Shown: positions 1-14,495 of the stretch, one piece after another
How the letters are laid out: every line of letters begins with the position of its first letter
Numbering within the stretch: position 1 is the first letter of the stretch
Source of the DNA: a virus
Virus record (IMG/VR): IMGVR_UViG_3300034115_000025
Location: 1 to 20,514 of that record
Strand: one strand, 5' to 3'
DNA length: 20,514 nucleotides
Notes under the pieces: model-generated
Told to the model about the DNA's origin: nothing
Databases searched by the model: none
The model's input: the letters and a program-made list of their open reading frames with translations, nothing else
Made by a program: the position numbers and the translations under genes

Positions 1-1123
1 ACAGGGCTTGCGACGCGGCCGTGTAGTCGGCGCGCAGGGCGAGTTTCGCGAACTCGTCGTAGCCCTTGAGGCAGTTATTGACGATGCCCCAAAAGAGCCA
101 ATGAAGCTGATGCCAGTGTCCGCAGATCACGGTGTCTACCTTCTGCCCGACCTTGGCATAGGACTTGATGATCTTCATGAACCCGCGGATGATTGGCCCA
201 AGCGCGCCAATGTGTCCGTCGCCGCCCTTGACGCCCATGCTGTCGCCGTGCGTGAGCAAGTACCAGTGCCCTAGCACGCAGAAGCGAACGTCGGTTCCGG
301 TCGCCACGGTGAACGTGAAGCGGTTGTCTCCAATATCTTTGAAGTATTGTTCAAGCTGGCAATACAGGTTCCACTCATACGACGTGGTGACGCGCGACTT
401 CATGCGCGGCTTCATCGTCGTGCGCCCGTGGTTGCCTACGACACACGGCACATAGATGCTGGCACCAGGGAACGCGTCCGCTATCTGCACCAGGGCCGCT
501 ATGATCAATCCGCGCAGATTGCTGATGCACTCCAGTGGCCGCATCGGCGATGTGTCGGCCAACTCTGGATGGATATCGCCCGTGATCATGTCGCCGCCGA
601 GGCATACGACAATGCCGAACGGTTTCACTACTTGCTTGCGGATCAGCTTGATCGTGGTCGTCACAAGATGCTGAATACGGCGTTCCGCAATAGCGGGGTT
701 GAACTCGTTGAGCCCATCGGTCTCGGACTTCTTTACGATTTCGCCATAGTGCCAATCGCTCCAGATCGTCATCGGGACGCCCGGCGTATTGTCGATGGTG
801 CCCTTCGTGGTCAACCACTTTGGCGGATCGGATGGCTCACGGGCGAGGCCGAAAATCTCCTCGCGAATGTCACTTGCTTCGAGACTTGTGGCGTCCGCGT
901 CTTTCAACTTTCGGACGAGCACTTTGTTTTCGACTTGGAGCTTTTGCAGTGGGTCCACGATCTTTGTGTTCACCGTCAGCCCGCGTTGCTTTGCGGCTTC
1001 GACGTGCTCGCGTATTGTCGAGCGGTTGATCCCCAGCGCCGGGATTGCTTTCCTTACGGACCCGGCCTCTCTTAGCACTTGCAGGATGTGAACCAATTCC
1101 GCATCCGTCTTCCGGTCGCCCAT
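1..1123 (-). CDS. HTH-metallophosphoesterase, 3' end cut by window edge
   Basis: Calcineurin-like metallophosphoesterase, 374 residues visible with no stop before the window edge. Residues about 9-48 look like a helix-turn-helix (alanine/glycine-rich helix, then NRSTIREHVEAA). A short charged, possibly coiled stretch follows at 58-78. The phosphoesterase motifs come in the family order: SDWHYGE (D123, H125), GGDMITGD (D178), GNHGR (N231, H232), THGD (H292, D294) and CGHWH (H336, H338), a complete metal-binding set. Start ATG at 1123 is chosen because GAGGAG lies 8 nt upstream on the minus strand. HTH plus phosphoesterase occurs in other phage replication modules; the substrate is unknown (cyclic nucleotide, DNA end or phosphoprotein are all possible). 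It overlaps the RuvC-like gene by 254 bp in another frame. The family call is firm, the function is not. Confidence 0.88.
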   Translation of the reverse strand, partial: MGDRKTDAELVHILQVLREAGSVRKAIPALGINRSTIREHVEAAKQRGLTVNTKIVDPLQKLQVENKVLVRKLKDADATSLEASDIREEIFGLAREPSDPPKWLTTKGTIDNTPGVPMTIWSDWHYGEIVKKSETDGLNEFNPAIAERRIQHLVTTTIKLIRKQVVKPFGIVVCLGGDMITGDIHPELADTSPMRPLECISNLRGLIIAALVQIADAFPGASIYVPCVVGNHGRTTMKPRMKSRVTTSYEWNLYCQLEQYFKDIGDNRFTFTVATGTDVRFCVLGHWYLLTHGDSMGVKGGDGHIGALGPIIRGFMKIIKSYAKVGQKVDTVICGHWHQLHWLFWGIVNNCLKGYDEFAKLALRADYTAASQAL

Positions 1124-1598
1124 CGTTTGAACTCCTCGCGTTTGATATGGTGTAGAATAAACCGCAGATCGCGTCAGCCTCGTGCTCATTAGGCTCCGTG
1201 TCGGCGAATGCCAATAGGTCGGCCTCGCAAAGCAACCGCTTCGCTGCCACAATAATCTCAGGCTTCTTCGCGGCGCCACTGCCGGTCGCCCACTTCTTGA
1301 TGGTCTGTGGGTCCATGTCCACAACAGGGAAGCCGTGAAGCTGTGCATTCTTCTCCACGAACGCAGCTTGACCCCACAGTGAACGCGTGGCGGCTTGACC
1401 GCGGGCGAAGGGGCGCTCGAAGCCCACAACATCGACCATCAGTCCGCGCAACTGTGCATCAAGAACAATGTCTGTACGCAGCAAGCGCGCCGGCCTATTA
1501 GCCTCCGTCGTGAAGTCGAAGTGTCCGAACTCGATTGAGCCGTTCGCATTGTGCGCCCACCCCATTGTGCTGCCAATGTCATACCAGATGACTTTCAT
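870..1598 (-). CDS. RuvC-like Holliday junction resolvase with basic C-terminal tail
   Basis: 242-aa RNase H-fold endonuclease of the RuvC type, expected to cut four-way or branched DNA during phage recombination and before packaging. Acidic residues sit where the family needs them: D7 in the first strand (WYDIGS), E61 (GFERPF) and the late helix NEHEADAICG (E138, H139, D142). The domain should finish near residue 155, giving a typical phage RuvC length. The frame nevertheless stays open for 84 more residues (159-242), very rich in Arg, Lys and Ser, entirely inside the phosphoesterase gene. Start ATG at 1598 overlaps the stop of the 38-aa gene (TGATG), with AAGGTG a few bases upstream. The tail may be real or may mark a lost stop codon or a sequence error. 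RuvC-fold call good, tail uncertain. Confidence 0.8.
   Translation of the reverse strand: MKVIWYDIGSTMGWAHNANGSIEFGHFDFTTEANRPARLLRTDIVLDAQLRGLMVDVVGFERPFARGQAATRSLWGQAAFVEKNAQLHGFPVVDMDPQTIKKWATGSGAAKKPEIIVAAKRLLCEADLLAFADTEPNEHEADAICGLFYTISNARSSNDGRPEDGCGIGSHPASAKRGRVRKESNPGAGDQPLDNTRARRSRKATRADGEHKDRGPTAKAPSRKQSARPKVERRGRHKSRSK
1132..1137 (-). promoter_or_regulatory. Shine-Dalgarno fixing the phosphoesterase start
   Basis: GAGGAG on the minus strand, 8 nt before the ATG at 1123. It lies inside the RuvC-like coding frame. It supports initiation of the phosphoesterase here rather than at a later ATG, and so makes the long overlap with the RuvC-like frame real at the sequence level. Confidence 0.7.
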
Positions 1599-1714
1599 CA
1601 CAGCACCTTGTCGATTGCATTCATCACTTCCCGCACTATCCACCACATGACGCCTGCGGTCACAATCGCCATGAATACAACGATGGCAATTAGTACAATG
1701 ATGAATATAATCAT
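1598..1714 (-). CDS. 38-aa single-span membrane protein
   Basis: Small gene between the DNA polymerase and RuvC-like genes, 38 aa. Residues 2-26 are almost purely hydrophobic (MIIFIIVLIAIVVFMAIV, then TAGVMWWIV), a clear transmembrane helix, followed by a short charged tail ending NAIDKVL. It starts 9 nt after the polymerase stop, and a GAGGG Shine-Dalgarno lies at the end of the polymerase gene about 7 nt upstream. Its TGA overlaps the ATG of the next gene. This tight fit supports a real gene despite its size. Function unknown. It is not placed like a holin (no endolysin nearby); phage membrane micro-proteins often alter host envelope or membrane proteins, but nothing here shows that. Confidence 0.72.
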   Translation of the reverse strand: MIIFIIVLIAIVVFMAIVTAGVMWWIVREVMNAIDKVL

Positions 1715-13819: not shown

Positions 13820-13944
13820 TGTGTACCTCCTATGACCACAATGCCGATACTGACTATTATGAAAATTGCCAGCATAAGCATTCCCAAGCCATCACTGTGT
13901 GTGGAGGCTATGCGGCGAAGTCTCCTGCGTTGTGATGGTTTCAT
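13816..13944 (-). CDS. 42-aa single-span membrane peptide
   Basis: 42 aa. A very basic N-terminus (MKPSQRRRLRR) is followed by a hydrophobic helix from about residue 20 to 40 (LGMLMLAIFIIVSIGIVVIG), predicting one transmembrane segment with the N-terminus inside. ATG at 13944 overlaps the stop of the pentapeptide gene (ATGA), with AGAGGAG upstream; its stop overlaps the next start. It is placed between two soluble-looking genes in an accessory cluster, so superinfection exclusion or membrane-protein modulation are possibilities, none demonstrated. Confidence 0.72.
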   Translation of the reverse strand: MKPSQRRRLRRIASTHSDGLGMLMLAIFIIVSIGIVVIGGTQ

Positions 13945-14495
13945 TGCTTTCTCCTCTTTTGAATTTTTCCCCAACCCACAGCAGTTGCGAGAAACAATCT
14001 GCGCTCGGCCGTGTTTGCCAGTTTTCTAGCGTCTGTTAAGGTACACCATCTACAGCCTGCCTTCAACATTATGCCGTAGGGTGCTTTTGGAAAACCGGAG
14101 ACAACAAAAAGTTCATAACCGTCATTTGTTGGACCAATTCTCAGGATATTTTTGGCACCGCGCAGATTGGCACCGTGCAGATCGGCATCGCGCAGATTGG
14201 CACCGTGCAGATCGGCACCTAATAGATCGGCACCGCGCAGATCGGCACCTAATAGATTGGCACCGCGCAGATCGGCACCGTGCAGATTGGCACCGCGCAG
14301 ATCGGCACCGTGCAGATTGGCACCGTGCAGATCGGCGCCGCTCAGATCGGCACCGCGCAGATTGGCACCGTGCAGATCGGCACCGCGCAGATTGGCACCG
14401 TGCAGATCGGCGCCGTGCAGATTGGCACCGTGCAGATTGGCGCCGTGCAGATTGGCAATTTCCCGAGTTGTGCCATTTTTGAAAAGAATTTTCAT
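13941..14495 (-). CDS. Pentapeptide-repeat protein with C-terminal globular domain
   Basis: 184 aa. After a 13-residue lead (MKILFKNGTTREI) come 20 tandem pentapeptides of the A(D/N)LxG type at residues 14-113, nearly all HG or RG at the last two places (exceptions LSG, LLG and NLRD). This predicts a right-handed quadrilateral beta-helix of five coils, the shape of Qnr/MfpA DNA mimics. Residues 114-184 form a separate domain with GPTNDGYELFVV, APYGIMLKAGCRWCTL and a basic C-terminus. Start ATG at 14495 has AAGGAG at good spacing and overlaps the 61-aa stop. Mimicking DNA to block a host nuclease or gyrase is an attractive idea, not shown here. Confidence 0.88.
   Translation of the reverse strand: MKILFKNGTTREIANLHGANLHGANLHGADLHGANLRGADLHGANLRGADLSGADLHGANLHGADLRGANLHGADLRGANLLGADLRGADLLGADLHGANLRDADLHGANLRGAKNILRIGPTNDGYELFVVSGFPKAPYGIMLKAGCRWCTLTDARKLANTAERRLFLATAVGWGKIQKRRKQ
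14157..14456. repeat. Twenty 15-bp tandem repeats within the pentapeptide gene
   Basis: The 300 bp that encode the pentapeptides are built of 15-bp units such as GGCACCGTGCAGATC on the plus strand. Units are alike at the nucleotide level, silent positions included, with two main switches (CGT/CGC and ATT/ATC). This suggests recent unit gain, loss or homogenisation, not only selection on protein shape. Confidence 0.85.

Follow-up and report, generated by a model that had tools for sequence, protein, structure and literature searches.

A long overlap between RuvC-like resolvase and phosphoesterase genes in two phages, with codon choice that favours a basic RuvC tail

The RuvC-like gene of the 20,514-base virus record considered here (the window), which also carries tailed-phage packaging genes (terminase, head-tail connector), continues out of frame over the beginning of the gene that follows it. 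This raises the question of how a frame encoding a resolvase came to be extended in this manner, and of whether the extension is anything more than an accident. A prior sequence-only reading had described an out-of-frame overlap of 254 bp, and the ORF coordinates bear this out, the two frames being different: positions 3, 1 and 2 of the downstream phosphoesterase/exonuclease (PE) codons make up the RuvC codons in the overlap (phase 1). On the minus strand, a gene encoding a microprotein is followed by the RuvC gene and then by PE (Table 1). The assigned RuvC start is supported by the stop codon of the microprotein sharing 1 nt with the RuvC ATG, and by a similar small frame preceding RuvC in L002, an IMG/VR contig that represents the one close relative found (PE 81% identical; RuvC domain 71% identical). 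In the window, as in L002, the microprotein sits between the DNA polymerase and RuvC. The PE C-terminus is lost at the contig end in the window; the L002 version of the protein comprises 412 residues. Elsewhere in the window, positions 13941-14495 (minus strand) encode a pentapeptide-repeat-like protein that derives from 15-bp units repeated in tandem at 14152-14457.

Table 1. Features of the RuvC/PE region of the window.
Feature	Coordinates	Strand	Basis
RuvC-like Holliday-junction resolvase gene (predicted)	870..1598	-	ORF, 242 aa plus stop TGA (870-872); PHROG 159; AlphaFold2 and PDB matches
RuvC catalytic domain, residues 1-156	1131..1598	-	AlphaFold2 secondary structure and pLDDT
Basic, predicted disordered RuvC tail, residues 157-242	873..1130	-	AlphaFold2 and Arg/Lys counts
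Putative dual-coding overlap, 254 bp	870..1123	-	ORF coordinates; equal length in L002 (3986-4239)
PE (phosphoesterase/exonuclease gene)	2..1123	-	374 residues in window; PHROG 284; 81% identical to L002
HTH-like three-helix N-terminal domain of PE, within overlap	986..1105	-	AlphaFold2 helices
Shine-Dalgarno-like GAGGAG	1132..1137	-	Read from sequence; within RuvC reading frame; PE ATG 8 nt on
Hydrophobic microprotein, 38 aa, membrane-spanning by eye	1598..1714	-	Directly upstream of RuvC; counterpart in L002

In a profile search, the RuvC product matched the PHROG 159 RuvC-like resolvase family (E 5e-16); the Pfam RuvC model returned 14.0 bits, under its curated cut-off of 22.2, a profile threshold by which the enzyme itself is not defined. 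The fold predicted by AlphaFold2 is complete by residue 156, the end of its last helix (residues 138-156), with ten-residue pLDDT means of 86-98 as far as residue 150, in agreement with the earlier expectation that the RuvC-like domain would end near residue 155. The remaining residues show no secondary structure, with pLDDT values of 43-64 in ten-residue blocks from residue 161 on. When the model was compared with the PDB using Foldseek, the top matches were the RuvC proteins of D. radiodurans (E 1.3e-9; TM score by target length of 0.78), E. coli and T. thermophilus. Residues D7, E61, E138, H139, E140 and D142, which we take to be the RuvC catalytic residues, are invariant among 22 aligned RuvC sequences. 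As modeled, the window protein has the RNase H-like RuvC fold and is RuvC-like, a predicted Holliday-junction resolvase that shares fold and acidic/histidine set with the RuvC proteins of Lactococcus phage bIL67 and the three bacteria listed above. Those 83 tail residues that lie inside PE include 25 Arg or Lys (R/K) and carry a net charge of +16, while that of the whole 86-residue tail is about +15. As such, the tail is indeed Arg/Lys-rich, and the proposal of an overprinted basic tail beyond a complete RuvC fold gains support from both the model and the residue counts.

The PE product matched the PHROG 284 exonuclease family in a profile search (E 6e-39). No match for the window PE (P0002) was obtained with the phosphoesterase Pfam model, Metallophos having matched only L038 (E 0.031), or with HTH Pfam models, which matched only in L038 and in the gene following RuvC in L045. 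In the AlphaFold2 model, three helices of the HTH kind (residues 7-20, 23-30 and 34-46; ten-residue pLDDT means of 70-89) are followed by a long helix and then by a core of lower confidence; it is the HTH-like region and the long helix that the RuvC tail overprints. Structure matches of PE were weak, with none in the PDB at E <= 0.001, and include LysR-type DNA-binding domains, SbcD/Mre11 and Pol epsilon B. The earlier claim that PE has an HTH and a Shine-Dalgarno sequence of its own agrees with the modeled three-helix N-terminus and with the GAGGAG motif ahead of the PE ATG. In the IMG/VR loci compared, PE varies much more in its N-terminal domain than in its core, and some relatives (L005, L007, L014 and L016) have a short N-terminal domain or none. 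That the overlap is what drives this rapid divergence was considered and rejected, as non-overlapping pairs behave alike (L044/L054: core 0.83, N-terminus 0.55).

The second-best PE relative after L002 was only 53% identical among 119 records, with L032, L060 and L061 being refetches of L002. In L002, RuvC also comprises 242 residues, the overlap is also 254 bp long, and 25 of the 83 overlapping tail residues are R/K. At the same time, the two phages share only 29 of the 84 codons of the overlap, 65% having changed. This bears directly on the suggestion that the RuvC stop is missing through a base-call error. The window is a virus contig for which one close relative was found, which leaves a sequencing or assembly error a vanishingly small probability; it is contradicted by L002, a separate contig in which the frames are related in the same way, the overlap is equally long and the tail is similar, with most overlap codons changed.

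To place the tail in a broader context, 24 well-scoring, distinct RuvC frames, the window included, were compared, these having been counted from 27 ORFs after the low-scoring L059 (score 34, tail 36), L029 (score 25, tail 30) and L057 (score 82, tail 16) were dropped. In 17 of the 24, RuvC stops 14-22 residues past the EHEADA motif, corresponding to about residue 157-165 in window numbering. The other seven carry longer tails, every one of which enters the next gene (99 residues past EHEADA in the window and in L002, 67 in L045, 57 in L046, 55 in L052, 51 in L004 and 40 in L038). At 7 of the 11 short-tail junctions read, the genes overlap by 4 nt (ATGA or GTGA). The gene entered is PE in five of the seven long-tailed cases, a PHROG 704 exonuclease in L045 (3001-3621) and a PHROG 1745 'DNA transfer protein' in L046 (3001-3639); because these last two tails enter different downstream genes, RuvC read-through is not tied to PE.

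In a RuvC tree whose deep branches are weak, the long-tail state needs four changes, with the well-supported branches forcing at least two; long tails are somewhat clustered (19 of 500 shuffles gave as low a value). Taken together, it is probable that a short RuvC tail is ancestral and that stop loss is recurrent. It had been reasoned that relatives with a stop near residue 155 would refute the initial reading. Such stops occur in most distant relatives and not in L002, the only close one, a pattern that points to a derived state and not to an error; loss of the RuvC stop by mutation is what best explains the tail, given where most of the surveyed frames stop. Searches of bacterial genomes yielded no close relative when PE was used and two distant loci when RuvC was used, neither among the 24, namely, L111, with a tail of 14 residues, and L112, a partial match reaching 32 residues past the motif. 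Among annotated phages, one weak RuvC match was found with the window protein and 20 records were found with the RuvC of a relative. In the 6 of those 20 records that were examined, the overlap of RuvC with the annotated gene after it never exceeded 4 nt, and measured exactly 4 nt in three (AcaML1, Sleepyhead and Sansa). MW202713, which offers the best annotated PE match, has no RuvC annotation ahead of PE, and a search with the window RuvC found no RuvC in it.

The length of the tail had been considered unusual. Across 14 window genes, PE included, 10.6% of 3652 positions are followed by 84 or more open codons in the equivalent offset frame. When PE codons were shuffled such that the protein was preserved, an equally open frame was seen in 2-14% of the shuffles for the window and 1-17% for L002, and in 70% for L002 when only local codons were used. 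Openness hence has a P of 0.01-0.17 under most nulls, and is not significant under several (0.10-0.17, and 0.70 under one). By itself, the length of the open frame is only mildly surprising, since in genes of this kind the offset frame readily remains open; that part of the claim is weakened, while the R/K content, given the PE sequence, lies beyond chance.

The composition of the tail was assessed by holding the PE amino acids fixed, shuffling synonymous codons and counting the R/K residues that the overlap encodes in the RuvC frame. About 15 R/K were expected and 25 were observed in each phage (z of 3.5 for the window and 3.9 for L002), such that the two rank second and first, respectively, of 30 PE genes. 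These genes were retained on the basis of a score >= 150, an N-terminal profile match that starts at position <= 12, a length >= 300 codons and a distinct core; five overlap RuvC and 25 served as controls, being classed as non-overlapping when a long RuvC frame was not evident, with several lacking a RuvC in the fetched stretch. The controls gave a mean z of 0.22 (sd 1.09; maximum 2.1). Given PE, the excess has a P of about 0.001 or less in the window and of 0.0008-0.008 in L002. As the window was chosen for its basic-looking tail, its own P value is biased and L002 offers the cleaner test. Across 89 windows drawn from the other genes of the window and the rest of PE, z reached at most 2.8; in 33 windows of the L002 contig, taken from four genes verified through their resemblance to window genes, it reached at most 2.1, with averages of about 0.5 for such stretches of the two contigs.

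The excess did not depend on a gene-wide codon pool. When shuffling was confined to the overlap, keeping the local codon mix, P was 0.001 for the window and 0.007 for L002, with two controls reaching z of 2.4 and 2.1. With codons identical in both phages frozen, P was 0.0004 (window) and 0.0002 (L002) using the gene-wide pool. Shuffling only those 44 of the 84 codons with a differing third base gave 0.0014 and 0.0008, respectively, with the gene-wide pool, and 0.029 for the window and 0 of 5000 shuffles for L002 with the local pool. That the excess persists at diverged codons indicates that the composition stayed basic even as the majority of codons changed. Accordingly, codon usage of PE in the overlap departs from what PE alone would lead one to expect, in favour of the RuvC frame. 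In the other overlapping lineages, selection for R/K was not significant in L004, L046, L052 and L038 and was borderline in L045 (P 0.04-0.07).

Conservation of the tail and dN/dS across relatives had been put forward as a check, one that reveals no site-wise constraint. In the tail, 27 of 83 residues are identical in the window and L002 (z of 2.5 relative to shuffles), within the z of 1.7-5.1 obtained for the same offset frame elsewhere in PE, so that the tail is no more conserved than such frames are. Naive dN/dS was 1.1-1.5 for the tail and 0.16 for the RuvC domain, and is given little weight here because such estimates are described as being of doubtful use in overlapping genes (PMC2601044). 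Nor was PE synonymous divergence lowered in the overlap, with 18 of 46 versus 78 of 240 same-residue codons differing (p 0.40). The evidence from these two phages suggests selection on composition rather than on sequence.

A further signal was sought in adenine at PE third codon positions (A3), which amounts to 27% in the overlap of the window and 29% in that of L002, dropping to 10% and 4%, respectively, after the overlap; T at third positions is low. The A3 changepoint falls at PE codon 83 in the window (range 74-105) and at codon 85 in L002 (range 82-99), with RuvC ending at codon 84/85. The drop in L002 is the strongest among the 30 PE genes. That of the window is not exceptional in strength, with the likelihood ratio being exceeded in 4 of the 25 controls and the A3 log odds in control L039 being higher. 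Changepoints with a permutation p <= 0.05 were detected in 12 of the 25 controls, many of them lying within the initial 20-46 codons or close to the gene end; for the window, only the position of the drop speaks for dual coding. At third bases that differ between the two phages, A3 was raised in the L002 overlap (14 of 44 versus 6 of 96, p 0.00015) and not in that of the window (12 of 44 versus 24 of 96, p 0.84). In L004, A3 drops at codon 28 (range 20-34), with RuvC ending at about codon 32, a coincidence weakened by the A-rich gene starts seen in controls. The PE of L013 shows a drop near codon 96 (range 89-115, permutation p 0.05) with no known RuvC overlap.

We incline, with modest confidence, to the explanation that the RuvC stop was lost and that this was followed by translation of a charge-bearing tail, with codons having been shaped for Lys/Arg. 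Against this stands neutral read-through, in which the stop was lost, the next stop lay 84 codons on by chance and the translated tail does nothing. Such a course of events, albeit distinctly less probable, would account for a good deal: HTH-coding DNA is fairly basic by default when read out of frame (the 25 controls hold 9-22 R/K per 83 codons in the RuvC-offset frame), frames of this length arise readily, the five long-tailed lineages other than the window and L002 show no clear codon signature, tail residues are not conserved, and A3 drops occur in many controls. What it does not account for is an R/K excess greater in both phages than in all 25 controls and evident at diverged codons too, together with the fall of A3 at the RuvC stop in both.

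If, instead, the shift in codon use belonged to PE itself, reflecting an N-terminal domain acquired by exchange with another phage or a ramp of slow codons where the gene begins, the RuvC frame would be open by accident. The rapid divergence of PE N-termini where there is no overlap, the A3-rich starts of 20-46 codons in several controls and the L013 changepoint all lend this some credence. Yet A3 climbs as codon 84 is approached, instead of declining from the first codons on (4, 6, 6 and 7 per successive 21 codons, then 2 and 0, in the window; 2, 7, 8 and 8, then 1 and 0, in L002), third-position T is low, unlike what an AT-rich donor would bring, and the R/K excess survives shuffling confined to the overlap, rendering this account improbable. 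Less probable still is that the overlap serves to regulate translation, with ribosomes on RuvC crossing the PE start and adjusting PE output, and the tail being incidental. Loss of the 4-nt junction would remove ordinary termination-reinitiation, and PE has its own Shine-Dalgarno sequence; however, Lys/Arg enrichment in the RuvC frame is not something that regulation predicts.

In the favored explanation of stop loss followed by codon shaping, a common ancestor of the window phage and L002 would have lost the RuvC stop beside the PE start, converting the common ATGA phase to phase 1, such that RuvC translation would run on over the first 84 PE codons to the next in-frame TGA. PE would still be started from its own Shine-Dalgarno sequence within the RuvC frame, and synonymous codons of the PE HTH region would later have been shaped so as to keep the RuvC frame rich in Lys/Arg. 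Translation of the tail, and selection on its composition, are both probable. Most likely, the disordered, positively charged tail would let the small phage RuvC hold branched or replicating DNA more firmly through non-specific electrostatic contacts. That the tail adds non-specific DNA affinity is plausible, because the RuvC of phage bIL67 is reported to use added positive charge, with extra positive surface charge aiding fork binding and partly explaining its wide substrate range, according to the portion of PMC3864405 consulted. A broader version, possible although on balance somewhat doubtful, is that of an overprinted 'charge tail' selected for net positive charge only, the sequence being free and the codons of the HTH gene tuned, with the junction of RuvC and the next gene acting as a hot spot for stop loss. 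Such a junction would supply a ready-made basic tail, because HTH-coding DNA is already Lys/Arg-rich out of frame.

The window RuvC differs from the phage and bacterial RuvC proteins named above in that its charge would reside in a separate, 86-residue disordered tail. In the literature consulted, the sole RuvC tail described is that of D. radiodurans, spanning residues 163-179 (excerpt of PMC9228767). Same-strand overlaps arising through stop-codon loss have been described in prokaryotes (excerpts of PMC3887535 and PMC2542354); the window overlap is likewise phase-1 and long, with the upstream gene extended. According to those same excerpts, 59% of prokaryotic overlaps are of the short phase-2 kind, with 4 nt being commonest, and selection is inferred against overlaps of more than 60 bp. 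At 254 bp, the window overlap is long for the stop-loss class, and the codons of the downstream gene appear tuned to the extension. The Arg-rich VP2/nucleocapsid overlap of chicken anaemia virus (excerpt of PMC6195259) offers another parallel, the window tail likewise being a disorder-promoting, Arg-rich product of a second frame. Unlike that case, the window tail would lengthen an enzyme at its C-terminus, the virus is a double-stranded DNA phage, and Lys is frequent as well; moreover, A is raised at PE third positions, whereas pooled virus overlaps are depleted in A in the same excerpt. Bacterial protein C-termini generally favour Lys/Arg (excerpt of PMC7246954), a preference that could explain the last few residues of the tail, yet hardly 80. 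Stop-loss overlaps and basic, disordered overprinted segments are hence known kinds; among the best-ranked papers of the literature search, none was found to describe a RuvC overlap or a long, dual-coded basic tail on a RuvC.

Should the favored explanation be true, the overlap would offer a traceable functional extension born from the loss of a single stop codon, with selection acting on bulk charge and not on sequence. Tails of this sort would be missed by ordinary conservation and dN/dS tests and deleted by gene callers that trim overlaps. They would also represent a simple route by which phage nucleases gain DNA affinity.
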